Source: Desulfobacteraceae bacterium (GTDB taxonomy: Bacteria > Desulfobacterota > Desulfobacteria > Desulfobacterales > Desulfosarcinaceae). From it: 64,000 bases of DNA. The stretch spans positions 1 through 64,000 of the forward strand of contig JAAERL010000611.1 in NCBI GenBank assembly GCA_024230435.1, given 5' to 3'. Shown in pieces: positions 2,577 through 47,970 of this stretch. Made by a program: the position numbers and the translations under genes. Every line of letters begins with the position of its first letter. Position 1 is the first letter of the stretch. Below the pieces are notes generated by a model. The model did not search any database. It had not been told where the DNA came from and saw only the letters and a list, made by a program, of their open reading frames with translations.

Positions 2577-2980
2577 TTATACTTTTTTATTCGGCCGCAC
2601 AGTATGATCCTGCTTAGAATCTGAATCCACGGTTTCAGGTGTTTCCGGTATTTGAATCGGATCTTTCGGTGCGGCTTTAGATTCGATATGCCGGATGGGC
2701 AATTGTGTTTCCGGCTCTTTTTCGATTTCGTCAGGCCGTACAGTATGATCCTGCTTAGAATCTGAATCCACGGTTTCAGGTGTTTCCGGTATTTGAATCG
2801 GATCTTTTGGTGCGGCTTTAGATTCGATATGTTGGATGAGCAATTGTGTTTCCGGCTCTTTTTCGATTTCGTCAGGCCGTACAGTATGATCCTGCTTAGA
2901 ATCTGAATCCATGGTTTCAGGTGTTTCCGGTATTTGAATCGGATCTTTTAATGTGCCGTCAGTTTCGGTTTCCTGGCGGG
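2577..2980 (-). repeat. 141-bp in-frame tandem repeat in scpB
   Basis: Nearly identical 141-bp units (period measured from GGCCG at 2593 and 2734) repeat about 2.5-2.8 times in the 3' end of scpB, encoding the 47-residue tail unit. The near identity at DNA level, including silent positions, points to recent tandem duplication and likely copy-number variation among strains. Confidence 0.85.
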
Positions 2981-3548
2981 GCAATTGTGTTTGCTGACTG
3001 TCTGAGGTTTGTTCGTTTTCCAGTTCGGGCTCAAGTTCGGCAAGTTGCCTTGGGCTTGGCAGATCTTTTAGATCCTTGAGATCGAAAAGCTCCAGGAAGA
3101 GTTTCGTGGTGGCATAAATAATCGGTCTGCCAGGGATTTCTTTGCGCCCGAGTATCCGGACAAGCTTTCGTTCCATGAGTTGTCTTAAAACGCCCCCACA
3201 GTCCACTCCCCGGACGTGTTCGATATCGGCCCGGATAATGGGCTGCTTATACGCAATGATTGCCAATGTTTCCAAAGCCGCTTTGCTTAGCCGTTGCGGA
3301 CTTGGCTGAAGAAGACGTTTAATCCATTCATGGTATTGCGGCCGGGAGCGCAACTGCCACCCGCCCGCCACTTCGTGTAGGACAAATCCGCCTGCACGCT
3401 GTTCATAGTCTTGTTGCAACTGCTCGAGCGCATTGCGCAGTTCGGAACCGTCAACAGAATCCAAGATAGTCTTGAATTTTTTAATCGTAAGTGGTTCTTC
3501 AGAAACAAATAACAGGCTTTCTAAAATGTTTTTTAAGTCTGTTTGCAT
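2577..3548 (-). CDS. scpB: Segregation and condensation protein B with repeat-bearing C-terminal tail
   Basis: ScpB dimerises through winged-helix domains and binds the kleisin ScpA in the bacterial SMC complex. The first ~175 residues are a normal ScpB: LESLLFVSEEPLT near the start, ALETLAIIAYKQPI, and RGVDCGGVLRQLMERKLV. After about residue 195 comes an acidic, proline-rich tail containing a 47-residue unit present 2.5 times (IQIPETPET, SKQDHTVRP, EIEKEPETQ). Total length 323 versus roughly 180-240 usual. An ATG at 3548, 8 bases past the scpA stop, fits the family start; an upstream TTG at 3602 inside scpA is possible but would add 18 residues of no known role. Confidence 0.9.
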   Translation of the reverse strand: MQTDLKNILESLLFVSEEPLTIKKFKTILDSVDGSELRNALEQLQQDYEQRAGGFVLHEVAGGWQLRSRPQYHEWIKRLLQPSPQRLSKAALETLAIIAYKQPIIRADIEHVRGVDCGGVLRQLMERKLVRILGRKEIPGRPIIYATTKLFLELFDLKDLKDLPSPRQLAELEPELENEQTSDSQQTQLPRQETETDGTLKDPIQIPETPETMDSDSKQDHTVRPDEIEKEPETQLLIQHIESKAAPKDPIQIPETPETVDSDSKQDHTVRPDEIEKEPETQLPIRHIESKAAPKDPIQIPETPETVDSDSKQDHTVRPNKKV

Positions 3549-3555
3549 ATAAGCA

Positions 3556-4266
3556 CTATTGGTAAAAAAGTCTAATGATTCCGTTTTGTGAATTTTGTAC
3601 AATACGGATCAGGTTTATTTTCATTAATTCAAGCAGGGCTAAAAATGTCGCAATGATAAATTTTTTTTCCGGATTATCTTCAAAGAGCTCTGTAAATACC
3701 AATGAACCTTTACTTTCAAGAGCCTCGATTAAACTATTCATACGATCTTTTACAGATATGGTTTCAGCGGCCATGTCAACCGTATGATCTTTAACGGCTC
3801 TGTTGAGTATGTTTTGAAAAGCGTCAATCAATTCAAACAGACCCGCCTGGATCCGGCCTTGGTTCTTAGAAATGTATCCGTCAAGCTTTGCGCGGCGCGC
3901 AAACATCGTATCACCTAAAATATTACGGCAGGCTAATTGCTCCGCCGCTGATTTCATCTGCAAATATTCACTAAGGGGCCGCACAATTTCCATGCGCGGA
4001 TCTTCCTCGTCCTCATCGTCATGGATGGGCAGCAGCGTCTTGGACTTGATTTGGGCCAGAGTGGATGCCATGAGTAAAAAATCGCCCACGTTATCAATGT
4101 TCAATAACTGTATCCATTCCAGGTAGACAAGATACTGCTCGGTAATTAACTTGACCGGTATATCATAGATATCCACCTCATTTTTCTTAATGAGATAGAT
4201 TAGAAGATCCATTGGGCCTTCAAATATGTTTTCCAGTTTGACCCGGTAGTCCTTTTTAATATCCAT
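3556..4266 (-). CDS. scpA: Segregation and condensation protein A
   Basis: ScpA is the kleisin that bridges the two SMC heads and recruits ScpB in chromosome condensation. The 236-residue length is normal. The N-terminal segment FEGPMDLLIYLIKKNEVDIY (residues 15-34) and the following DIPVKLITEQYL are hallmarks; AQIKSKTLLP lies near residue 72, and the C-terminal ~70 residues form the winged helix that closes the SMC ring. It is transcribed just ahead of scpB and only 26 bases after trpS, an operon order common in this phylum. Confidence 0.95.
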   Translation of the reverse strand: MDIKKDYRVKLENIFEGPMDLLIYLIKKNEVDIYDIPVKLITEQYLVYLEWIQLLNIDNVGDFLLMASTLAQIKSKTLLPIHDDEDEEDPRMEIVRPLSEYLQMKSAAEQLACRNILGDTMFARRAKLDGYISKNQGRIQAGLFELIDAFQNILNRAVKDHTVDMAAETISVKDRMNSLIEALESKGSLVFTELFEDNPEKKFIIATFLALLELMKINLIRIVQNSQNGIIRLFYQ

Positions 4267-11414: not shown

Positions 11415-13037
11415 ATGAATAGCGGTATTCAAAGATACAATATGGCATTGGCTTGTTTGCTGGTAGGGCTGTGTTTTCTATTTCGTTTGTACTACGCGCA
11501 AGCCTTTTTATTAGTACCTGATGAAACCAATTATTGGCAGTGGGCCAGGCACTTGTCCTGGGGATATCATGATCAGGCGCCAATGATTGGCTGGACAATT
11601 TTTCTCAGCACGAAACTTTTTGGACATACCGAGTTAGGCGTCCGGCTTCCTTCCATTTTATCTATGCTCATTGCATCCATTTACCTGGTGTTATTTGCAC
11701 GGCGGTGGTTTAGCAGCAATATCGCTTTGCAAACGGCTATTTTAAGCCAGGTTATTCTGGCTTTTAACGTAGGAGGCTTACTGGCCACGGCTGACGGGCT
11801 GCAAAGCGCGGCCTGGATCGCCGCCAGTTATCATGCGGCGAGGGCTTTTGAAAATAACCACTGGCGGCAGTGGCTTATCGGTGGTTTATGTTTTGGTTTC
11901 GGAATGCTGAGCAAATATACAATGGTTTTGTTCCTGCCTTGTGTTTTTGCTTTTGGTTTGGTTTCGAAAAATCATCGCCGCATGTTTCTCAGTATACGGC
12001 CATATTGTGCTTGTCTGATAGGTTTATTGTTATTTTCACCGGTTGTGCTTTGGAATGCGTCCAACAATTGGAATTCCTTGCGCCATGTCGCATATATCGG
12101 AGGCGTGAATGAGGGATTTGCCCTTAATTTTAATTTTTTGGGTGATTATATCGCTTCCCAGGCCGCACTTTTAACCCCTTTGGTTTTTATTGTTATTTGC
12201 CTATCGTGGTTTGTAACGATTCGCCGTTTTAAAACTGTTCGATGGATCAATGTCTATTTGCTGTTTACCTCGCTGCCGGTCATAGCAGGGTTCGGCCTTC
12301 TTAGTCTGCACACCCGGGTTTATGGAAACTGGCCGGGCTTTGGTTATTTAACGGCCACTGTTCTGGCGGCTTCTTATTTTGCATTGGATTCCCGAAAAAC
12401 AAGTGTATCTAAAAAACCGCAACTGACAGCGCTATGGCGATGGACTACCGCCTCAGCAGCCGTTTTAACCGCTATAGTGCTTATTCATACAGTTTGGCCG
12501 ATATTACCCCTTCCAGTAAAAATGGATCGAACGGCCGGAGAAGTCCTGGGCTGGGATCAACTTGGACAGATAACAGGCCGGGTAAAAAGCAAGATGTCTG
12601 AAACAAAGCCCGTTTTTGTTTTTGGACTCAAATACCAGCTCGCAAGCGAACTGGCCTTCTATATCCCGGGACAACCGCCTACGGTAAGTATCAATCGTTG
12701 GCGCCGGCCAAATGTTTATGATTACTGGTACACGGATCAAGACTTACTTGGGATGGATGCTGTCGGCGTTACCCAAAATAATAACAGCCGGAAGCGGCTT
12801 CTTGAGGTTTTTGAAAGGGTTGAACAAGAGCCGGAAAGCTATACCGTATATCAGCGCCCGGTTTTTGGTGGAAAGTTTTCGGAAAAAGAGCATAAAAAAG
12901 TTAAAATATTTTATATCTACCGATGCTATGGTTTTAAAGGCGGCCTGCGTTGGGAGCCGCCGAATGAAAAAGATATCAGGGGCTCGGCCAGTGTTTCACC
13001 CAATGCTGTACAAGAGCCTAAGTATGAAGTTTTTTAA
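11415..13037 (+). CDS. GT-C glycosyltransferase, ArnT/PMT (GT39/GT83) type
   Basis: 540-residue integral membrane protein with about ten hydrophobic segments in the first 360 residues. The first periplasmic loop carries PDETNYWQWAR, the acidic pair expected for the catalytic Asp of polyprenyl-phosphate-sugar-using GT-C enzymes such as ArnT and PMT. A soluble C-terminal part (about 385-540) follows. It would transfer a sugar from undecaprenyl phosphate to lipid A, a glycan or a protein on the periplasmic face. It is 34 bases after the histidine kinase, and its 3' end overlaps the convergent GT2 gene by 20 bases. A GT2 of the polyprenyl-P-sugar synthase type directly opposite is a plausible donor source. 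Confidence 0.8.
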   Translation: MNSGIQRYNMALACLLVGLCFLFRLYYAQAFLLVPDETNYWQWARHLSWGYHDQAPMIGWTIFLSTKLFGHTELGVRLPSILSMLIASIYLVLFARRWFSSNIALQTAILSQVILAFNVGGLLATADGLQSAAWIAASYHAARAFENNHWRQWLIGGLCFGFGMLSKYTMVLFLPCVFAFGLVSKNHRRMFLSIRPYCACLIGLLLFSPVVLWNASNNWNSLRHVAYIGGVNEGFALNFNFLGDYIASQAALLTPLVFIVICLSWFVTIRRFKTVRWINVYLLFTSLPVIAGFGLLSLHTRVYGNWPGFGYLTATVLAASYFALDSRKTSVSKKPQLTALWRWTTASAAVLTAIVLIHTVWPILPLPVKMDRTAGEVLGWDQLGQITGRVKSKMSETKPVFVFGLKYQLASELAFYIPGQPPTVSINRWRRPNVYDYWYTDQDLLGMDAVGVTQNNNSRKRLLEVFERVEQEPESYTVYQRPVFGGKFSEKEHKKVKIFYIYRCYGFKGGLRWEPPNEKDIRGSASVSPNAVQEPKYEVF

Positions 13038-30471: not shown

Positions 30472-31614
30472 GTGGATAAAAATTTAAAAAACAGGATCCA
30501 TCATGTCATGTCCAGTCATGAACGTTTTCCATTTTTTTCATTGTCTACAGGGCTTTGGGCAGGATCATTGCTTTATGGTTCGGCTGTCCGGGCACGGCAG
30601 GCATTATACCGTCATCATTGGATTAGACCTGTTAAATTGCCCTGTGCGGTTATCAGCGTAGGGAACCTGACCACCGGCGGAACGGGCAAGACACCTATGA
30701 CGATTTATTTGGCCGAGCTGGCCAAGCGTATGGGATATAGGGCTGTAATTATAAGTAGAGGATATAAAAGCAAAAACAACCGGTCGGCCAGGCTGGTAAG
30801 TGATGGCCGGTCGCTATTGACGGATGTGTGCCAAGCAGGTGATGAACCTTACCTTATGGCGGCTTTGCAACAGGGAACACCTGTGGTTATTGGTCGCAGA
30901 CGCGTGGACGCCGGAAAACTCGCCATTGGTAAATTCAAGCCTGACATCCTGTTGTTGGATGATGGGTATCAGCATATGCAGCTTCATCGCGATGTGAATG
31001 TTTTATTAATGGATGCCCGGCGTCCCTTTGGCAATTGCTGTTTGCTGCCACGCGGCAGTTTGCGCGAACCCATATCCGCTTTACAACGCGCAGACGCAAT
31101 CGTCTTGACCAGATCAGACGCGATGCATGCTCAAGATTGTTCAAAATTACTACGATTGTCGGCAAATAAGCCTGTGTTCAGAGCTTATCATAAAAGCCGG
31201 ATCGCTGGTGTGGTCCGGCCCCAAACAGATTGCCCGGATATGATCAGTTTTGGCAATAACCACTCAGGAGGCCGGGATTGGCTGGACAAGCCGCTATTTG
31301 CTTTTTCAGGACTCGCGGATAATTCCCGCTTTTGGGAATCGATAAAACTGTTTGGCGGAAAACTCGCCGGAACAATGGCCTTCGATGACCATCATTGCTA
31401 TAGCGCAAAAGACGCAGCCGTCATTTGCAAAAAAGCCCGGCATTCAGGGGCGGCTTGCCTGATAACAACCGATAAGGATTATGTGCGTTTCGCCAAGGGG
31501 AGCAGATGGCCTTTGCCGCTGATTGTCATGGGCGTGACAATTGAGTTCAGACAGGATATGGAGCATTGGCGCAGTTTTGTGGAGCATCAACTGAAAAAGG
31601 TTGTTCGTAAATAG
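30472..31614 (+). CDS. lpxK: Tetraacyldisaccharide 4'-kinase
   Basis: LpxK phosphorylates the 4' position of the lipid A disaccharide. The P-loop is in SVGNLTTGGTGKTPM (about residue 62), and LLLDDGYQHMQLHRDVNVLL and PRGSLREP are diagnostic. DDHHCYS near residue 305 also fits. 380 residues (usual 330-370). GTG start at 30472 with GAGGGGG upstream. Its stop codon TAG overlaps the first base of the R3 repeat. Confidence 0.95.
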   Translation: MDKNLKNRIHHVMSSHERFPFFSLSTGLWAGSLLYGSAVRARQALYRHHWIRPVKLPCAVISVGNLTTGGTGKTPMTIYLAELAKRMGYRAVIISRGYKSKNNRSARLVSDGRSLLTDVCQAGDEPYLMAALQQGTPVVIGRRRVDAGKLAIGKFKPDILLLDDGYQHMQLHRDVNVLLMDARRPFGNCCLLPRGSLREPISALQRADAIVLTRSDAMHAQDCSKLLRLSANKPVFRAYHKSRIAGVVRPQTDCPDMISFGNNHSGGRDWLDKPLFAFSGLADNSRFWESIKLFGGKLAGTMAFDDHHCYSAKDAAVICKKARHSGAACLITTDKDYVRFAKGSRWPLPLIVMGVTIEFRQDMEHWRSFVEHQLKKVVRK

Positions 31615-33003: not shown

Positions 33004-34611
33004 TTAGGACGGATTTTTTGGCAATCTTTGGAAAAGCTTTATCGATTTGCTGTCAGGATGCTGCCAGGTTCCGAGTAATTTAAAGTCTTTTTTCAGTGGT
33101 GACGCAAGTAAGTCTAGACGCTTTGCGGGCCAGTAGCGCTCTTCATAGAGCACATATTCTATTTCTTCTTGATCCAGAACACCAATCAATTGGTTATAAT
33201 TATCCGGGATTTCGGTCATAAAATTTTCCCCGCAAAGCGGTTTGGGATAGTGGCGGTTTGCGTAAAAAAAGATCCATTCATAGCCTTTGGAGGATTTTGC
33301 CGATAGGATACGTATTGCCTGGTTAGCGGCTTTTTCTTTGGATATCATTTCGGCAGCCTGACGATAGACAGCTTTGTCCTGTTCTTTAGGCCGTAGATTC
33401 TTTGAAAGCCCGAAGATGAGAATAAAGGTTGCAACGGATATGACCGCAACCTTGAGTCCACAGCCTTTTATCGTTTTTAGGCGGTTGGTTATTTTTTCTA
33501 CTCCGAATCCGATGATAACGCAGGCTGATAAAATCAAACTTGCTAAAAAACGATGATAAATTAGCCATGTCTGAAACAAATGAATGTAAACGGTAAAAGC
33601 GCTGCCCGCCATAAGCAGGATAAAATACCATAATCGAGGGTCCTTTTTAATACGCTTGCCGATACCGGCAAAGCCAAGGAAAAAAAACAGGGCGTATAGA
33701 TAAAACAGGGCTTCAATTAAATTGTTGAGAATCACTCCGGCAGGCAATAACCACCGGATCTCCCGAATTCTGCAAAACATTTCTCTTAGCTGCCCGGATT
33801 GTTCAGAGGAGGAAAGTTTGAGATGTTCATTCAATTTCGTATAGCTTGAGAAAAGGGAAAAGATCTCTTTTTTGATTTTATTTATCTGAAAAGCATTTTT
33901 TAACTCTATATCGAATGCCGTCAACAAAACGATTCCCAAGATACCTGCACATAGGAAGGGTAACATGAACGAAAGTATGCGCTGTATTTTTTTTTCACTT
34001 TTACTGAAAATCAAACAGAAAAATGAGACGGCAATAAATACGAATCCTTCAATTCTTGTACAAATAGCAAAAAGTAAAAAAAGCGCACTTAATGCCAAAT
34101 CATACCGGAACCGTTTTGTGTGCGCCTGTATATCCCAGTGGCGTACATACATTAAAATTGCCGTAGTAGTGAAAAACCAAAAAGCAGGATCACGCATAAT
34201 ATCCCCGCTTGGTCCTACAAAAGCCGGAATTAATACGAAAACAAGCGTTGTCAATGCTGCAAAACACGTGTCTTGAAAGCGTCTGAGAATATAATAGATA
34301 TTGATTGTGGCGCCGGTTCCTAAAAAAACGTTTACTAATAGACCGGCAATAACCCAATCCCGGACAACACTAAAGGCGGCGGCAATCAATACGGGTAGTA
34401 TCGAAAAGAAAGTGAGTTGACAGCTTAGTATAGAAGAAAAATCAGCGTAAAAGAGCGCTTTGGCCTGGTAAATGTAATGAATACCGTCAGGATTGATAAC
34501 ACTTCGCATCATTGCGGTGTAAAGCCGCAGGGAAAATCCAAGAAAAATAATCCAAACAATTGGTTTGCTTGATGCGGATTTAATTAGTGAAAATATTTTT
34601 GACACTAACAT
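33004..34611 (-). CDS. GT-C family membrane glycosyltransferase (GT39-like)
   Basis: 535-residue integral membrane protein with about eleven hydrophobic helices up to residue 395 and a soluble tail. The first periplasmic loop has NPDGIHYIYQAKALF, matching the catalytic Asp position of GT39/GT83 enzymes, though the second acidic residue seen in PDE loops is absent. It likely uses a polyprenyl-phosphate sugar. It is a single gene on the minus strand between plus-strand glycosyltransferases, consistent with shuffling of a surface-glycan locus. The 218 bases upstream hold nothing recognisable. Confidence 0.7.
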   Translation of the reverse strand: MLVSKIFSLIKSASSKPIVWIIFLGFSLRLYTAMMRSVINPDGIHYIYQAKALFYADFSSILSCQLTFFSILPVLIAAAFSVVRDWVIAGLLVNVFLGTGATINIYYILRRFQDTCFAALTTLVFVLIPAFVGPSGDIMRDPAFWFFTTTAILMYVRHWDIQAHTKRFRYDLALSALFLLFAICTRIEGFVFIAVSFFCLIFSKSEKKIQRILSFMLPFLCAGILGIVLLTAFDIELKNAFQINKIKKEIFSLFSSYTKLNEHLKLSSSEQSGQLREMFCRIREIRWLLPAGVILNNLIEALFYLYALFFFLGFAGIGKRIKKDPRLWYFILLMAGSAFTVYIHLFQTWLIYHRFLASLILSACVIIGFGVEKITNRLKTIKGCGLKVAVISVATFILIFGLSKNLRPKEQDKAVYRQAAEMISKEKAANQAIRILSAKSSKGYEWIFFYANRHYPKPLCGENFMTEIPDNYNQLIGVLDQEEIEYVLYEERYWPAKRLDLLASPLKKDFKLLGTWQHPDSKSIKLFQRLPKNPS

Positions 34612-36672: not shown

Positions 36673-37092
36673 AAAATATCCGTTATTGCACCGTGTTTGA
36701 ATCCGTTTTCAGAGTGTCAGGCTTTTAACGAAGTTTAAAAATTAAAAGTATCGAAATTATTAGTGTAAAATCACAACGAGAGATTAATGAGGTTAGAGAG
36801 CTTTTCAGAAAATACTACTTTCTAATAAATTGATGATTCGCAATCGGCGATTGGCTTTTTTTGAATCGGAAAACTTGCAACCGGTTTTGAGTTAATGATA
36901 GCTGATCTAATTCAATAGTGATAATTGTTTCAACTTTTTTGCAAGGGTGTGACGGTTTATCGCTGAAATCTTTACCGGCCCAGAATTTGTATCAAGAAAA
37001 GCAAGCCGTAAACTCGACATATTTTTTATAGTTCGAAAAGTTGGGCTTTTTTAAAATAAGGGATCAGGTGAGCAACATCTCAAGAAAAAACT
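36673..37092. other. Intergenic region before the glycan cassette
   Basis: 420 A+T-rich bases separate the waaE-like gene from the G+C-richer cassette. They contain a possible GNAT remnant (listed) and a weak terminator-like element at 36841-36862 (5-bp stem CAATC-GGC-GATTG followed by seven T). Nothing else was recognised. Confidence 0.45.
36729..36833 (+). pseudogene. Possible GNAT acetyltransferase N-terminal remnant
   Basis: An open frame without a start codon reads IEIISVKSQREINEVRELF followed by RKYYFLIN and a stop. The pattern REINEVRELFRKY resembles the first helix of many GNAT acetyltransferases. Nothing downstream continues the fold. It is too short for certainty and may be chance. 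Confidence 0.2.
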
Positions 37093-38667
37093 ATGACAAC
37101 AACTACAGCAACTACTACTACCAGACAGCCATGTCTTTTTCGCGTTTCGCCTTTTGTAGACCGTATTGGCCTGAGCAGACCAGAGGACCTAGTGTTGTTT
37201 TTTTTCCTGTTAGCGGGCTTGATAGCCAGAATACGCAACTACCTGGCCGGTATTTCGTTTTATGTCGATGAATCCGCCCTTGCCAACAACCTGGTAAATT
37301 TGAACTTAAGCCAACTGTTCGGCCCTTTGGAACAGAACCAGATAGCGCCCATTGGTTTCTGTGTAATTGAAAAACTGATCATCCTTGTTTTTGGAAACCA
37401 TGAATACGCTTTTCGGTTTTTGCCCTTTATAGCCGGTTCGGTAGCTGTAATTTTCGCCTTTGTGGCTGTTTACCGCGCCCTGGGGACAGTGCCGGCCATA
37501 CTTTGCGCGGCCCAACTGGCGGTGATCAAAGAACCGCTCTATTATGCCAACAATCTCAAGCCCTACGCCTCGGATTTGGCCATTGCCCTCGGGCTTGTCA
37601 TTCTGGCCTGGACTTCAGAGCTGCCCGATATTTCCCGGAAACGGTTTTTTTCGCTGTTTATTGCGGGCATTGTAGCGGTCTGGTTTTCCTTTCCAAGTCT
37701 ATTCGTGCTCGGGGCCATTACCATAGTCTATTTAACCGGCTTGTTACGCAACAGACAGTGGCGTCCAGCAGTGCCCATCATTATAATGGGGCTAACCTGG
37801 CTAACCAGTTTCGCCATTCAATATTATCTGCTTAAATCAGGCGGCCAATATGACAATCTGACAGACATCTGGACCAATCGTTTTGCCGTTCTGTGGCCAA
37901 GGAGCCTGGAAGATATAAAGACAAATTACTTTCTTTTGACCTATGTCTTCCGCAATCCCTTGTGGACAAGTCATCCTATCATTTCGGTCCCGCTGTACCT
38001 GGCCGGATGCGTTTTGCTATGGCAAAAGGATAAACGTTTTTTGCTGTTGATTCTACTGCCATTGGTGATCAATTTCATCGCTTCAGGCCTGCATACTTAC
38101 CCTTTCAGAGACAGGCTGCTTCAATATGCTGTGATCTTTCTTTTCACACCCATCGCGTTTTGCCTGACCTGGCTTGTGACGAAGAAATTCAAGCATGGCT
38201 GGGTCAAATGGGCCGGCATTTTTATGATCATCGCCAATCTTGCCGAGCCCACCGTCTTTACCATCAAGCATATTATCACACCCCGCAAATACGAAGAGAT
38301 GAAACCGGTAGTCAACTACCTTATAGATCATAAAACACACAACGACAGACTTTATATCTATGCCCACGCAATGAAAACGTTTACCTACTACCAAAATCAG
38401 TTGCAGCTTGAGTATAAGAGTTTAACCATAAGTCCAGACTGGAACAACTGCACACCGGAAAGCATCGGAAAAGAGATACGCAAGCTTTCCGGCCGGGTCT
38501 GGCTAATATTCGGACATGCTAAACAGTTCAAGGGCGTGGACTACGAAGCACGTTTTCTCAAAGCTGCAGACAAGCATGGCAAGCGCATCGATCAATACGT
38601 TGACGCGGGCGCGTCAACCTATCTGTATGAATTTCCTAAATCCCGGCCACGCATGCAAAATAGCTGA
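37093..38667 (+). CDS. GT-C membrane glycosyltransferase (cassette gene 1)
   Basis: 524-residue integral membrane protein with about ten hydrophobic helices to residue 395 and a soluble C-terminal domain (about 400-524). The first periplasmic loop reads SFYVDESALANNLVNLNL, with the DE pair typical of polyprenyl-phosphate-dependent GT-C enzymes (GT39/ArnT-like). It starts with an unusual threonine run (MTTTTATTTT), so a later start is possible. First of four tightly packed genes (2-base, 4-base-overlap and 6-base junctions). Base composition and codon choice (many CTG, GCC, GGC) differ from the flanking LPS genes. Confidence 0.72.
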   Translation: MTTTTATTTTRQPCLFRVSPFVDRIGLSRPEDLVLFFFLLAGLIARIRNYLAGISFYVDESALANNLVNLNLSQLFGPLEQNQIAPIGFCVIEKLIILVFGNHEYAFRFLPFIAGSVAVIFAFVAVYRALGTVPAILCAAQLAVIKEPLYYANNLKPYASDLAIALGLVILAWTSELPDISRKRFFSLFIAGIVAVWFSFPSLFVLGAITIVYLTGLLRNRQWRPAVPIIIMGLTWLTSFAIQYYLLKSGGQYDNLTDIWTNRFAVLWPRSLEDIKTNYFLLTYVFRNPLWTSHPIISVPLYLAGCVLLWQKDKRFLLLILLPLVINFIASGLHTYPFRDRLLQYAVIFLFTPIAFCLTWLVTKKFKHGWVKWAGIFMIIANLAEPTVFTIKHIITPRKYEEMKPVVNYLIDHKTHNDRLYIYAHAMKTFTYYQNQLQLEYKSLTISPDWNNCTPESIGKEIRKLSGRVWLIFGHAKQFKGVDYEARFLKAADKHGKRIDQYVDAGASTYLYEFPKSRPRMQNS

Positions 38668-38669
38668 TT

Positions 38670-40310
38670 ATGTCCGCTTTCGAAAATCAGGATAAAAGGT
38701 CTGATATGCAAACTGAAAAGAAAAATATCTTCCTGCAAAAGGCTCTGGAAGACATCCCCAAATTATTCACCTTGCTGGACAGAAATCCCCACAGCCCAAC
38801 CTATGGCTGTTTCGACCGCAACTACTGGCATTATAAAATCATCGATTTTCCCAGCGGCATGGCCCAGGAGTTTATCTTCCCGCTGGCCCTGGCCTATGAC
38901 ACTGGCTCGAGCGGCAATCCCTATTATAAAAAACGAGTGCTGAAAGACTGGGTACGCGCGGCCATGGCCTTTGCCGCAAAAAGCGCCCATAAGGACGGGT
39001 CCTGCGATGATTATTACCCCTTTGAACGGGCATCGGGAGCGGCGGCCTTCTCTGTGCTGGCCTTTGTGGAAAGCTACAAGCTGATGGGATTTCATGATCC
39101 GGAACTTGTCGCCTTTTTTTCAAAACGCGCGGACTGGCTTGCCGATCACATGGAAAGCGGCCAGTTGTCAAACCACCAGGCGTTAATCACCCTGTGCCTT
39201 GAACTGCTGGGACGGCTGTTGAAAACTGATCGCTGGTCGCGGCAGAAAAACAAGCGCCTTGAGCTTGTCCTCGCCTGGCAGAATGAAGAGGGCTGGTTTC
39301 AGGAGTACGAGGGTTTCGACCCTGGGTACCATACACTTACGGTGCTGCTACTGGCCTGGCTGCACCAGTTGGACACCGGCAACCAGTTATTGCAACGCGC
39401 AGTTTCAAAAGCCGTTGACCTTGCCCTGGAATGCATGCACCCGGATGGGACCTATGGGGGCGAATACGGCAGCCGCAACACGAACAATTACTTTTCTTAC
39501 GGGTTTGAACTGGCAGGCCGCTGGAAACCCGAGGCTCTTTACATGAACGACAGGTTTTCCCAGGCTCTGAAAAGCAAACAGACCCCGTGCTATTCTGATG
39601 ATCATATTTTAGGGCATCACCTATGGGATCATTTTCTTACCTTTCGTGGATACAATACCACAAGAAACTATCAGTTCACTCCCAAAAAAAGGGTGTTTTT
39701 GAAAAACGCCCAACTTTTGATAGACCGGCGGCAGGATACAGAGCTTTACCTTGCCCTGAACAAAGGCGGCGTCTTTAAACTCTTCAAAGACAACAAACTG
39801 GTTTGCGCCGATACCGGACTTTCCATTGTGATGCAACAGGGCAAAAAAACGAAAAATGCCGTAAGCCACCTGATCGATGATTATGAAATCGAAACAGACG
39901 GCGATACCATTATCATCAGGGGTCAAATGGGGTGGGCCAAACAGCGGCAGATGACCTCGTCCCAAATGATCATCCTGAGAGTGATCATGTTCACCCTGGG
40001 CCGTTTTTTTCCCAACCTTGTCCGCAAGGGTCTGCAGAAACTTCTAATCACTGGCAAAGTCAGGACCAGCGTTCGATTTAAGCGCCGCCTGACCTGGAAC
40101 AAAACAAAGTGGCAGGTGGAGGACAAGCTTGGCTCCATCAACTGGCAACAGGTTAAAAGCGTCTGCCTTGGCTGTGACCAGACATCCATATACGTTGTCA
40201 TGAGCCGCACCTTCCATCCGGGGCAACTGTTCCCAGCAATTGATTTAAGCGGCAAGTTATCCAAACTCGGTCCGGGTCAAGACCTGGTATACAAAAGGGA
40301 TCTGCCATGA
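38670..40310 (+). CDS. Large soluble protein, predicted alpha/alpha-toroid (lyase/epimerase-like), cassette gene 2
   Basis: 546 residues, no signal peptide or membrane helix. The first ~330 residues are helical with aromatic- and acid-rich loops (DRNYWHYKIIDFPSG, DGSCDDYYPFERASG, GWFQEYEGFDPGYHTLT, HPDGTYGGEYGSRNTNNYF). This is the look of an (alpha/alpha) toroid like those of polysaccharide lyases, heparinases and glucuronyl epimerases. The last ~200 residues look beta-rich, as in heparinase II/III-like C-terminal sheets. Not recognised as a named family. A second ATG at 38706 has a better ribosome site. Being cytoplasmic and sandwiched between polyprenyl-sugar enzymes, it may modify a lipid-linked sugar or glycan. 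Confidence 0.75.
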   Translation: MSAFENQDKRSDMQTEKKNIFLQKALEDIPKLFTLLDRNPHSPTYGCFDRNYWHYKIIDFPSGMAQEFIFPLALAYDTGSSGNPYYKKRVLKDWVRAAMAFAAKSAHKDGSCDDYYPFERASGAAAFSVLAFVESYKLMGFHDPELVAFFSKRADWLADHMESGQLSNHQALITLCLELLGRLLKTDRWSRQKNKRLELVLAWQNEEGWFQEYEGFDPGYHTLTVLLLAWLHQLDTGNQLLQRAVSKAVDLALECMHPDGTYGGEYGSRNTNNYFSYGFELAGRWKPEALYMNDRFSQALKSKQTPCYSDDHILGHHLWDHFLTFRGYNTTRNYQFTPKKRVFLKNAQLLIDRRQDTELYLALNKGGVFKLFKDNKLVCADTGLSIVMQQGKKTKNAVSHLIDDYEIETDGDTIIIRGQMGWAKQRQMTSSQMIILRVIMFTLGRFFPNLVRKGLQKLLITGKVRTSVRFKRRLTWNKTKWQVEDKLGSINWQQVKSVCLGCDQTSIYVVMSRTFHPGQLFPAIDLSGKLSKLGPGQDLVYKRDLP

Positions 40311-41296
40311 AGAAGCTAATCTCCCTGGCGGTAAGCCTTTTAATTCTATCCATCATCTTTTACAAAATTGATCTTTCCAAGATGGTGGATATTTTCCGGC
40401 ACTGCTCGCTGACCTGGATGGGATTAGGCGCCGCCATGTTCATTCCCGCCACCATGATCACAGCCTTTCGCTTCAAGATCATCGCCCCTGATCAAGCCCG
40501 CATCAGCTATGCCGAAGCGCTGAAACTGGTGCTGGCGGGCAGCTCGCTGAACATGGTGCTTCCGTCAAAGATGGGCGATATCGCCAAAGGCTACTTTGTG
40601 ACCCAAAAATCCGCAGGCACAAATTTGTCACTGGCCCTAAGCCTCGTGGTCTACGAGAAAGCCTGCGACGTTCTGTCATTGCTCCTCTGGTGCGTGTTGG
40701 GATTGATTTTTTACAAACAGACCGATGTGATATTCTTCGTGCTTTCTTTCATGGTGCTTATGGGATTGATTGGCGGAATTTTGATGATAGGTTCAACTCG
40801 TTTTGCACTGCTAATACTCAAGAGCATGAACAAAATCGCACCGGGAAAAATTAAAAATAAAATTGACACCTTTGCCAACTCCTGGATCAGCATGTGTACT
40901 TTCCTTAAAAAGGACAAACCGCTCATGCTCAAAGTGGCCGCCATCTCTATTGCCGTATGGTTCTTACACCTTGTGCAAATCTGGTTCTTTATCAGGATGC
41001 TCAACGCAACGGCGCCCTTTGGATCTCACCTGGCCCTTACCCCGCTGGCGATTTTCGCTGGCTTGCTGCCGCTGACATATGCCGGTATCGGCACGCGCGA
41101 CGCGGCTCTAATCTATTTTTTAAAGGATTACCTCAGCTCCGGCGCCGCCGCAGCCCTGGGAATTCTATGCACCATGCGCTACATTGTTCCGGCTCTGGCC
41201 GGACTGCCTTTTTTGAACCGCTACATGTTTAAAAAAAATTCCATGAAAAGAACCAATGGGCGCCCCCCAAAATCGCCCTCAATAGACACAGAGTGA
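40307..41296 (+). CDS. Flippase-like UPF0104/AglD-type membrane protein (cassette gene 3)
   Basis: 329-residue polytopic protein of the lysylphosphatidylglycerol synthase transmembrane-region family (UPF0104; relatives in MprF and archaeal AglD). Signs are the two N-terminal helices, KLVLAGSSLNMVLPSKMGD (about 68-86), LSLVVYEKACDVLSLL, and GLLPLTYAGIGTRDAALIYFL (about 250-270). Family members flip lipids or lie fused to polyprenyl-sugar synthases. Start overlaps the previous stop (ATGA) with AAGGGA upstream. Likely role: moving or handing on the lipid-linked sugar made by the next gene's enzyme; inferred. Confidence 0.82.
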   Translation: MKKLISLAVSLLILSIIFYKIDLSKMVDIFRHCSLTWMGLGAAMFIPATMITAFRFKIIAPDQARISYAEALKLVLAGSSLNMVLPSKMGDIAKGYFVTQKSAGTNLSLALSLVVYEKACDVLSLLLWCVLGLIFYKQTDVIFFVLSFMVLMGLIGGILMIGSTRFALLILKSMNKIAPGKIKNKIDTFANSWISMCTFLKKDKPLMLKVAAISIAVWFLHLVQIWFFIRMLNATAPFGSHLALTPLAIFAGLLPLTYAGIGTRDAALIYFLKDYLSSGAAAALGILCTMRYIVPALAGLPFLNRYMFKKNSMKRTNGRPPKSPSIDTE

Positions 41297-41302
41297 GAAA
41301 CC

Positions 41303-42274
41303 ATGAAACTGATTATCCAAATCCCTTGTTATGGGGAGGCTGAAACCATAGAACAAACCGTGCGCGATCTGCCCGTCAACATTGAGGGCATTGATACAAT
41401 CGAATATCTTGTCATTGATGACGGCAGCACAGATGGCACCTACCAAATCGCCGAACGCGCCGGAGTTCACCATGTGATCCGGCAAGACTACAATAAAGGG
41501 CTGGCATCAACCTTTGCAAAAGGCATCGCCCACGCCATTTCCCTTGGGGCCGATATTGTCGTTAACACAGACGGCGACAACCAATATTGCGGCAAGGATA
41601 TTGCGAAACTTGTCCAGCCGATTCTTGAAAAAAAGGCGGATATCGTTATCGGATGCCGCCCCATAACAAACCATCCAGAATTCAGCTTTATCAAAAAAGG
41701 GCTGCAGCATCTTGGCAGCTGGGTGCTGCGCAAAATCTCCAAAACAACGGTACGCGACGCGGCGTCCGGCTTTCGGGCGTTTACAAGGGAAGCTTGCATG
41801 CGGCTTTATGTTCACTCCAATTTTTCGTATTGCATGGAAACCCTGATCCAGGCAGGCAACAGCGGATTGAAAGTCACATCCGTGGATATTGACATCAATC
41901 CCAAAACCAGGGATTCAAGGCTCTTTAGCAACATTTTTCAGTATATTCTCAAGTCCGGCGCAACCATGGTCTCCATGTTCGTCCTGTATCGGCCCGGTTC
42001 GTTTTTTCTGCTCTCTAGCCTTAGCTCATTTTTCATCGCAACCGTGCTCGGCGTTCGATATCTCTATCTGGTCTTTATCGCAAATGCCCCCGATCCATTC
42101 CGGACTTACTTGCCCTCGTTGATCCTGCTTTCGATTTTTGCAACCTTTGGCATGATCCTTACTCTGCTTGGAGTCTATGGTGAGCTGTCGAAAGCCCAGC
42201 GGCGGCTGCTGGAAGAAATTATCATCAATCAGAGAAAATATCTGATCAACGGATCGGACAAATCAGAAAGATAA
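41303..42274 (+). CDS. GT2 glycosyltransferase with C-terminal membrane pair, GtrB/DPM1-like (cassette gene 4)
   Basis: 323 residues. The GT-A domain shows LIIQIPCYGEAETIEQT, LVIDDGSTDGTYQIA, and DxD in NTDGDNQYCGKD (about 90-101); ASGFRAFTREA near residue 154 is the family's acceptor loop. Two transmembrane helices follow (about 232-252 and 270-292, SLSSFFIATVLGVRYL and FATFGMILTLLG), the layout of GtrB and related polyprenyl-phosphate glucosyl/mannosyl synthases. It would charge undecaprenyl phosphate with a hexose for the cassette's GT-C enzyme. Six bases after the flippase-like gene. Confidence 0.85.
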   Translation: MKLIIQIPCYGEAETIEQTVRDLPVNIEGIDTIEYLVIDDGSTDGTYQIAERAGVHHVIRQDYNKGLASTFAKGIAHAISLGADIVVNTDGDNQYCGKDIAKLVQPILEKKADIVIGCRPITNHPEFSFIKKGLQHLGSWVLRKISKTTVRDAASGFRAFTREACMRLYVHSNFSYCMETLIQAGNSGLKVTSVDIDINPKTRDSRLFSNIFQYILKSGATMVSMFVLYRPGSFFLLSSLSSFFIATVLGVRYLYLVFIANAPDPFRTYLPSLILLSIFATFGMILTLLGVYGELSKAQRRLLEEIIINQRKYLINGSDKSER

Positions 42275-45844: not shown

Positions 45845-46918
45845 CTAATTTCCGATCTTCAATATATCTGCAACAGCCACTTGCACTTGTTCCACCGTAA
45901 TGGCCTGCATACAATGATGTGGCTCACAGTGGCGTTGAAAGCATGGGACGCAATCCAAAAGATTCGTTTGCAATACCTTGTGTCCTTGCCCGTGGGGACC
46001 GGTTCGCCAGGGCGCTGTTGGGCCAAACAGGGCAACTGCCGGAGCGCCAACGGCTGCTGCAATATGCATAGGACCTGTATCGGTGGACACGACACACGCC
46101 ATTTGTTCATACATTGCCGCCAATTGCACCAGAGAGGTTCGTCCGGCCATGTTTTTAGCTTTGTTGCGCATATGACGCTGTATCTGGCTGATAACGCCAA
46201 CATCTTCCGGACCACCAGTAAAGAAAATAGTTACGCCATGCCGATCTATCAAACTATCAGCCAGTTGTGCAAAACGCTCAGGAAGCCAAAGTTTTGTGTC
46301 CCATTTTGCCATGGGATTGATGGCGATGGTTTGATGTTTATTCCGCCAACCGTTGTCTATCAACATTTTGTTAACTTTGTTCCGGTCATCATTGCTGATG
46401 GGAACGGCATATTCAACGGGACCTTTTGGGATGCCGATACCTTCCAGCAGGCGCAGCCCCCGGTCCAGAGCGTGAATTTGCATACTGATTGAGGGTATAC
46501 GTTCGTTTAAAACCAGATGACTGTGTTCCTGATGTTGCATCCCAGGGCCAAAACCGATTTTCCTGCGGCCATGGGCAAGGGCAATCCACAAGGCGCCTTT
46601 GAGTGAGAATTGAAAATCAATAATCAGATCATAGCGTGTATCTCGTAACTGACGTAAAAACCGCCGAATGGCTTGCCAATGGGTGCGCCGTTGCGGGGAG
46701 GCTAAACCCTTGATCCATTTTTTGCGTTTTGAGATAAGAACCCTGTTCAAAGCGTGATGCCCTTGAATAAAGCCTGCGGCGGCTTCTTCAACCAGCCATG
46801 TGATGTGCGCTTGGGGGTAGTGGCGGCGCAGAGCGTTAAGCGCCGGTAAAGTATGTACAACATCACCAATGGCGCTGAGTTTGACGATCAATATCTTAGG
46901 ATTGCCTGTTGTTTTCAT
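45845..46918 (-). CDS. waaC: LPS heptosyltransferase I
   Basis: GT9 family enzyme adding the first heptose from ADP-heptose to Kdo. The 357 residues begin ILIVKLSAIGDVVHTLPAL, the WaaC hallmark with the catalytic Asp; HITWLVEEAAAGF, AINPMAKWDTKLWLPERFAQL (about 195-215) and STDTGPMHIAAAVGAPAVALFGPT near the C-terminus also fit. ATGA overlap with waaF upstream. A C-terminal cysteine cluster (CVPCFQRHCEPHHC) resembles that in some WaaF/WaaQ homologues. Confidence 0.92.
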   Translation of the reverse strand: MKTTGNPKILIVKLSAIGDVVHTLPALNALRRHYPQAHITWLVEEAAAGFIQGHHALNRVLISKRKKWIKGLASPQRRTHWQAIRRFLRQLRDTRYDLIIDFQFSLKGALWIALAHGRRKIGFGPGMQHQEHSHLVLNERIPSISMQIHALDRGLRLLEGIGIPKGPVEYAVPISNDDRNKVNKMLIDNGWRNKHQTIAINPMAKWDTKLWLPERFAQLADSLIDRHGVTIFFTGGPEDVGVISQIQRHMRNKAKNMAGRTSLVQLAAMYEQMACVVSTDTGPMHIAAAVGAPAVALFGPTAPWRTGPHGQGHKVLQTNLLDCVPCFQRHCEPHHCMQAITVEQVQVAVADILKIGN

Positions 46919-47970
46919 GAATTGGCGTTATCCATCAGCGATAGGGCGGCACTGAGTACCTGGTCTACAGTAACGGCAGTCATACAAGGGTGATGAATCG
47001 GACAGTCCGGAAGCAAACATGGGCTGTCTTTACAACTGCCTTTTGCCTGCACCGTCAGACTCGTGGGATTGCTCGGCCCTGTGGCTATTGGGTCGGTGGG
47101 GCCGATGACCGCAACTTGAGGCACATCCAAAGCAGCGGCCACATGCATCAATCCCGAATCATTGGTGATGAAAAGGTTGCACAAACCGATGAGCGCCATA
47201 GCTTGCCGTAAAGTGGTGGCGCCGGCCAGATTACTGCATCCGTCACCGATTTTATCGGCAAGCGCTTGGCCCAAACCGGCTTCACCGGGTGAGCCGAAAA
47301 TCACAATCCTGGCATCGAAGCGTTCTTTTAGAGCTTTGCCCAAGGCTGCATAGCGCTCCACCGGCCAGCGTTTGGCCGTTCCGTGGGCAGCGCCGGGATT
47401 GAACCCCAAAATGATTTGATCTTTCATCACCCCAAGGCTGTTGAGCGTTTGCCTGGCGTGGAGCGTTTCCTGTTTTGTCAGGGTGATTTCAAGTTTCCGG
47501 CCGTTGACGCCGATTCCAAGTGCATAGGGCAGTCCGAGGTAATAATCAATTAAATGGCCTTTTTTGAGCAGCCGCCAGTTATGGATACGTTCAGTAAGCA
47601 ACAGTGTGCGTCCATCGGTAGTATAGCCTGCGCGAAATGGAATTGCCGCCAGCCATGAAAGCAGGGCGGCTTCAAAGGCGTTTTGAAACAACAGGGCCGC
47701 ATCAAAGTTTTGTCTTCTTAAATCCCGCACAAGCCGCAGCAGCCCAAAAGGACCTTTATGGCGGCCATCGGCTTTATAGATCATAAGATCGTCTATGTTG
47801 GGATTGTTTTCAAAAACAGGCCCTACCCAGGGTTTGACCAATAGTGTGATTCTAGCGCCGGGAAAGCCCTTGCGAAGAGCACGCATAGCCGGTGTTGTCA
47901 TAACAGCGTCACCAACCCAGTTGGCGCCGCGGACCAAAAGTTTTTTTATGTTGTTACGATGGTTCATCAT
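46915..47970 (-). CDS. waaF: LPS heptosyltransferase II
   Basis: GT9 enzyme adding the second heptose. 351 residues: KKLLVRGANWVGDAVMTTPA near the N-terminus is the classical WaaF signature; FNPGAAHGTAKRWPVERYAA (about 195-214) and TNDSGLMHVAAALDVPQVAV (about 270) form the ADP-heptose site. Ends in a CLLPDCPIHHPCM cysteine block. Its start abuts the lpxL-like stop and its end overlaps waaC. Confidence 0.95.
   Translation of the reverse strand: MMNHRNNIKKLLVRGANWVGDAVMTTPAMRALRKGFPGARITLLVKPWVGPVFENNPNIDDLMIYKADGRHKGPFGLLRLVRDLRRQNFDAALLFQNAFEAALLSWLAAIPFRAGYTTDGRTLLLTERIHNWRLLKKGHLIDYYLGLPYALGIGVNGRKLEITLTKQETLHARQTLNSLGVMKDQIILGFNPGAAHGTAKRWPVERYAALGKALKERFDARIVIFGSPGEAGLGQALADKIGDGCSNLAGATTLRQAMALIGLCNLFITNDSGLMHVAAALDVPQVAVIGPTDPIATGPSNPTSLTVQAKGSCKDSPCLLPDCPIHHPCMTAVTVDQVLSAALSLMDNANS

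Follow-up and report, generated by a model that had tools for sequence, protein, structure and literature searches.

A recurrent three-gene core for a possible Arn-like pathway in bacteria, with a predicted heparinase-fold protein as its putative editing enzyme

In the Arn pathway (ArnC, ArnD, ArnE/F and ArnT), which adds Ara4N to lipid A, a GT2 enzyme charges undecaprenyl phosphate, a cytoplasmic enzyme edits the lipid-linked sugar, and a flippase and a GT-C transferase complete the set. ArnD, the editing enzyme, has a deacetylase fold. Lipid-linked uronates feature in two further precedents: the GT2 enzyme AepG makes dolichyl-P-GlcA (PMC9943897), and Agl32 epimerises lipid-linked GlcA to IdoA prior to flipping (PMC13308652). 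Both Agl32 and AglQ, which act in lipid-linked glycan assembly for haloarchaeal N-glycosylation, are helical proteins of the toroid type (PMC13308652, PMC3827465). Proteins of the PF03706/UPF0104 family have been put forward as flippases for lipids and lipid-linked saccharides, and archaeal neighbourhoods are described in which arCOG00899 (UPF0104) is found with an AglD-like glycosyltransferase and an STT3-like GT-C enzyme; a toroid protein is not reported among them (PMC5898192).

A toroid joined to a beta domain is the architecture of the heparinase II/III (PL12) and PL33 lyases. Where members of their superfamily have been characterised, the reaction takes place at C5 of a hexuronate, a Tyr serving as acid/base and an Asn (or His) lying close to the carboxylate; the catalytic residues of PL33 are N238, Y291 and H444, of which Y291 is orthologous to Y294 of PL12 (PMC11848413). 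The PL33 literature also places human DS-epi1, an enzyme with a biosynthetic role on uronates, in this fold superfamily (PMC11848413).

We analysed a four-gene cassette at positions 37093-42274 of a 64,000-nucleotide stretch of a Desulfobacterota genome (the whole of that stretch is referred to here as the window). The ORF coordinates confirm an earlier reading of the locus as four plus-strand genes with junctions of +2, -4 and +6 bases, which encode, in order, a GT-C-type glycosyltransferase, a toroid protein (TOR), a flippase-like membrane protein (FLP) and a GT2 enzyme. The surroundings are those of a lipid A/LPS-core locus, with LpxK at position 30472, heptosyltransferases I/II at 45845-47970, an LpxL-like acyltransferase, MsbA, several GT4/GT2 enzymes and (recognised by eye) LpxA, LpxD and LpxB. 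The preliminary description had called the cassette richer in G+C than its neighbours; at 48.7% it does exceed the window mean (44.6%) and the 5' flank (43.2%), but the 3' flank (47.8%) hardly differs from it. An AT-rich gap of 420 bases (36673-37092) lies upstream, and a stretch within it resembles the start of an acetyltransferase by eye and is perhaps a gene remnant. Elsewhere the window encodes two further GT-C-type proteins (33004-34611 and 11415-13037; PF02366 weakly, PF13231) and, at 2577-3602, an ORF that by eye resembles segregation/condensation protein B and has a tandem-repeat C-terminal tail (DPIQIPETPETVDSDSKQDHTVRP...).

Three of the four products belong to recognisable families, much as first described. 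The GT2 enzyme (323 residues; 41303..42274, plus strand) is a putative polyprenyl-phosphate sugar synthase with a DxD-type motif (DGD, 41570-41578) and two C-terminal transmembrane helices. It matches PF00535 at 1.6e-22, AglJ and PpgS are the named families closest to it (the AglJ model is matched at 1e-24, below its cut-off), and its relatives of solved structure are the polyprenyl-phosphate synthases dolichol-phosphate mannose synthase (DPMS, 5mlz) and ArnC. From its sequence we infer that its acceptor is a polyprenyl phosphate carrier. FLP (329 residues; 40307..41296, plus strand) is a UPF0104/LPG_synthase_TM membrane protein that matches PF03706 at an E-value of 1.7e-35 (123.4 bits against a gathering score of 33.4) and TIGR00374 at 3.4e-15, above its cut-off. 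The GT-C enzyme (524 residues; 37093..38667, plus strand) is polytopic, and the Asp-Glu pair of its FYVDES motif in the first outer loop (D59 and E60, at 37267-37272) is invariant in all 10 relatives compared. Its AlphaFold model finds ArnT (5ezm) as the best PDB match in a Foldseek search (E 3.4e-7), followed by OST/PglB; the enzyme likely transfers a polyprenyl-phosphate-linked sugar outside the membrane. ArnC-like and ArnT-like enzymes are in this way arranged around a candidate editor and a candidate flippase, which is a resemblance to the Arn pathway in plan only: TOR, with its heparinase-like toroid and beta domains, takes the place of ArnD, and a UPF0104/PF03706 candidate that of ArnE/F.

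The fourth product, TOR (38670..40310, plus strand), is an unexported alpha/alpha-toroid and beta-domain protein of 546 residues, the true start of which may be Met13 (38706), as the N-termini of most homologues fall around residues 14-18. A hydrophobic N-terminal stretch was sought in its homologues by simple hydropathy only and none was found; on that measure an export signal is absent, in keeping with the cytoplasmic location first proposed. No family among the Pfam or NCBIfam models matched TOR, and single-sequence searches of the PDB, Pfam and NCBIfam returned nothing useful. An AlphaFold2 model computed from 60 sequences (pLDDT 84.8, pTM 0.89) consists of helices to approximately residue 326, followed by a beta domain into which a pair of helices is inserted at residues 430-459, and so bears out the toroid and the beta-rich C-terminus that had been read from the sequence. 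The inserted pair (codons 39957..40046, plus strand; placed from the model) is conserved, with a first helix that is hydrophobic and a second that is amphipathic and cationic by hydrophobic moment and charge, and in the model it is a possible membrane-contact element.

In a Foldseek search with the full-length model the top ranks were taken by PL33 hyaluronan lyases (E 3e-7), the glycosaminoglycan lyase GAGase VII and chondroitin AC lyase, the last two of which we take to be members of PL35 and PL8, respectively. Because the toroid fold is common, we also compared sequence profiles. The TOR profile aligned by hhalign with heparinase II/III-like proteins of related genomes at a probability of 96.4 (E 1.1e-9) over 379 columns that span both domains, and did so again with other sampling (probability 92.7, E 4e-7); the best of 30 column-shuffled TOR profiles reached a probability of 0.47, and the reversed profile and the GT2, FLP, GT-C and GH127 profiles all stayed at or below 2.2. 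The heparinase II/III-like set (family A5) itself matches heparinase III (4MMH/4MMI) at 8e-56. The Hepar_II_III Pfam model did not match TOR and matched two of 60 homologues, at an E-value of 0.024 at best. By profile and by modelled fold, TOR, which had been described as unrecognised, is a member of the heparinase/uronate-lyase/DS-epimerase fold superfamily. Profile matches to complement C3/C5 and transcobalamin were set aside as chance similarities between generic toroids, and a kinship with GH127, prompted by weak Pfam matches, was ruled out by the control profile (probability 2.2).

Alignment through family A5 places Asn168-His169 of TOR (codons 39171..39176, plus strand) and Tyr220 (codon 39327..39329, plus strand; within the motif EGWFxEYxGxDPGY) at positions 216-217 and 270 of the heparinase III chain. 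If 24 leader residues are missing from that chain, the positions correspond to Asn240-His241 and the catalytic Tyr294, and both the catalytic Asn (N240) and the catalytic Tyr (Y294) of heparinase III are in that case present in TOR. Asn168, Tyr220, Glu212, Tyr213, Asp217, Arg269 and Arg472 are invariant in 74 of 74 TOR homologues, and His169 is kept in 70 of them. The HxHxD motif of the heparinase beta domain, which supplies the third catalytic His (H424 in heparinase III), was unaligned in TOR in both hhalign alignments; His400, conserved in 69 of the 74 homologues, is a candidate replacement for that His. TOR and the PL12 and PL33 lyases therefore have in common a toroid and beta architecture and an aligned Asn and Tyr, but TOR is unexported, lacks an aligned HxHxD and is encoded among biosynthetic genes. 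The possibility, raised with the original description, that the toroid protein would match an exported enzyme unrelated to polyprenyl sugars is borne out no further than a resemblance in fold to exported lyases; TOR itself stays inside the cell by prediction and is tied to polyprenyl-sugar genes.

At least 527 relatives of TOR are present in GTDB genomes. The best 80 of these are almost all cyanobacterial, at 53-61% identity, in a list that favours cyanobacteria, and a relative with 44% identity is carried by a Phyllobacterium plasmid. The family occurs in 15 of 395 Desulfobacterota genomes and in approximately 9% of the cyanobacterial genomes sampled; none was found in viral contigs. In the TOR tree, the window protein pairs with one from a Desulfobacterales MAG (SH-aLRT 98), that pair is the sister of the cyanobacterial clade and the deeper branches are Desulfobacterota, a topology that does not support transfer out of cyanobacteria.

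The same genes were found together again in other genomes, and we therefore regard the cassette as more than a chance arrangement. GT2 is nearby in 58 of 96 TOR loci, FLP in 50, both in 41 and one or the other in 67; no partner is nearby in 28 loci, many of them on short contigs. Across loci, GT2-TOR-FLP-GT-C is the commonest order, that in the window being GT-C-TOR-FLP-GT2. Among 194 evenly drawn cyanobacterial genomes, 16 contain TOR and FLP, two TOR only, one FLP only and 175 neither (naive Fisher p 2.5e-20, phylogeny ignored), and GT2 is present in 17 of the 18 that contain TOR. An FLP orthologue was found in each of 10 sampled TOR genomes, including ones where the two genes are separate; in one genome (G481), GT2 adjoins FLP and TOR lies approximately 3.1 Mb away. 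GT2-TOR-FLP is a recurrent core. Approximately 50 mostly small cyanobacterial genomes (1.6-2.3 Mb) encode a GT2 that is 42-51% identical to that of the window and neither TOR nor FLP; such genomes may leave that lipid-linked sugar unedited or rely on a different flippase.

The GT-C enzyme is a looser associate, so that the self-contained system of four parts originally envisaged reduces to a conserved core of three genes plus a place that is variable or empty. Its family joins GT2, TOR and FLP in nine of the 96 loci, and a second polytopic family, which matches no Pfam model and is marked by a QDDARQH motif, stands beside the core in 17, among them that of the rhizobial (Phyllobacterium) plasmid and two from Desulfobacterota. 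Since the fourth position is filled by either of two distinct GT-C-like families, or by no neighbouring gene of that kind, the transferase appears to be an exchangeable part of the module, and the differing partners suggest different acceptors. Proteins of the QDDARQH family (approximately 430-630 residues; L064:14279-16012 and homologues in L044, L065, L071, L096, L107, L112, L028, L030 and L006) look like an undescribed GT-C family; a search of the window's genome at an E-value of 1e-3 found no match to it. A second copy of the whole cassette was also sought in that genome, the assembly of which is fragmented (1238 contigs), and only the GT-C gene was found to have a paralogue (G000:C1140:43708-45246, equivalent to L021:7708-9246), which is 55% identical and has no GT2, TOR or FLP nearby.

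We tentatively favour, at somewhat less than an even chance, an Arn-like pathway for the cassette, with TOR editing a uronate carried on polyprenyl phosphate, most likely by C5-epimerisation, before it is flipped. At the cytoplasmic face, the GT2 enzyme would charge polyprenyl phosphate from a nucleotide sugar, most likely that of a hexuronic acid; TOR would act at C5 of the lipid-linked uronate, most likely epimerising it (for example GlcA to IdoA); FLP would bring the edited product to the other side of the membrane; and the GT-C enzyme would pass it to an outer acceptor, in this genome LPS core or another periplasmic glycan. The setting in an LPS locus suggests the former. Cleavage is disfavoured relative to epimerisation because a lone lipid-bound sugar has no 4-linked residue to eliminate. 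We infer the polyprenyl carrier, the identity of the sugar as a uronate, its epimerisation, the direction of flipping and the acceptor. Editing of a polyprenyl-phosphate-linked uronate is the best explanation in view of the Arn-like plan, the C5 chemistry of the superfamily, the AepG and Agl32 precedents and the UDP-glucose/GDP-mannose dehydrogenase genes present in the window's genome, and modification of the lipid-linked sugar in the cytoplasm would, by analogy, best account for the part played by TOR. Weighing against this reading are the unaligned HxHxD motif, the likeness of the toroid alone to AGE-family 2-epimerases, the affinity of GT2 to AglJ and PpgS, the GT2 genes of cyanobacteria that have neither TOR nor FLP, and the 28 TOR loci with no partner nearby. 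A heparinase II/III-like gene of the window's genome is separated by approximately 16 kb from one encoding a UDP-glucose/GDP-mannose dehydrogenase (G000:C138:19156-36175), a proximity that makes a surface polysaccharide locus with uronates likely there. That the favoured reading holds broadly, as a pathway widespread in bacteria, with polyprenyl-phosphate-linked uronate epimerised by an unexported enzyme of DS-epimerase/heparinase fold and then delivered to the surface by a UPF0104 flippase and exchangeable GT-C enzymes, is a possibility that we consider doubtful.

TOR might instead be a cytoplasmic AGE-type 2-epimerase or isomerase, or act upstream of GT2, on a sugar that is free or nucleotide-bound, and so supply the donor, which we judge rather unlikely. 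When the toroid alone was compared (VIA-align), AGE-family 2-epimerases came first, with cellobiose 2-epimerases at Z 25-26 over approximately 300 residues (rmsd 3 Å), and the Haloferax protein AglQ, a soluble glycosylation protein modelled on 1fp3, has been proposed to be an isomerase (PMC3827465). AGE enzymes, however, are single-domain proteins and TOR has a beta domain, its full-length matches are lyases, PF07221 (AGE) did not match it, and the profile comparison, which covered heparinase II/III-like, GH127, GT2, FLP and GT-C profiles, favours heparinases; a single AGE gene, a partial one, was found in the order. The closest full-length matches, which are to eliminases, and the retained Asn and Tyr would fit genuine lyase or hydrolase activity, with TOR trimming or recycling uronate-containing glycans in the cytoplasm, perhaps as quality control of the same pathway. 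This we consider unlikely, since the GT2 and flippase set implies a single lipid-borne sugar with no bond to break and HxHxD is unaligned.

A non-catalytic TOR, serving as a scaffold or carrier that docks GT2 and the flippase at the membrane, would make use of the conserved hydrophobic and amphipathic helix pair and accord with the very strong linkage to the flippase, yet E212, Y213, D217, Y220 and R269 are invariant even at approximately 25% identity, which exceeds what a scaffold needs and renders this explanation improbable. It is very improbable that the four genes are accidental neighbours with no common function: LPS loci often exchange genes, the family is sparse in Desulfobacterota and the GT-C partners differ, but for TOR, GT2 and FLP the recurrent adjacency and the shared presence and absence contradict it. 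The co-occurrence search proposed at the outset, by which the grouping might have dissolved, instead returned these three genes together.

Set against the described systems, a pathway in which TOR edits a lipid-linked uronate would be of a known kind, while the family of its editing enzyme and the module itself appear undescribed. No system of this composition was found in the literature, as had been supposed, nor any named cyanobacterial system with this module, both within open-licence articles. Human DS-epi1 differs in acting on a polymer, and its likeness to TOR is that of a shared fold superfamily. Agl32 and AglQ are single-domain proteins with AGE-like models and belong to archaeal oligosaccharide pathways, and the active site of Agl32 is unlike that of DS-epi1. 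The archaeal arCOG00899 neighbourhoods share with the cassette a flippase candidate, a GT2 and a GT-C enzyme. The shared presence and absence of TOR and FLP offers a rare functional handle on bacterial UPF0104 proteins, the substrates of which are mostly unknown. If TOR does edit a polyprenyl-linked uronate, it would extend the heparinase/DS-epimerase superfamily from polymers to lipid-linked monosaccharides, would, should the editing be an epimerisation, stand as the bacterial equivalent of archaeal Agl32 in a different fold and provide iduronate-type sugars by editing at the lipid level, and would predict a new cyanobacterial surface sugar that can be searched for directly. At one locus (L010:100-2436), TOR carries a fused C-terminal SAM-dependent methyltransferase domain, which hints at possible methylation of the edited sugar.
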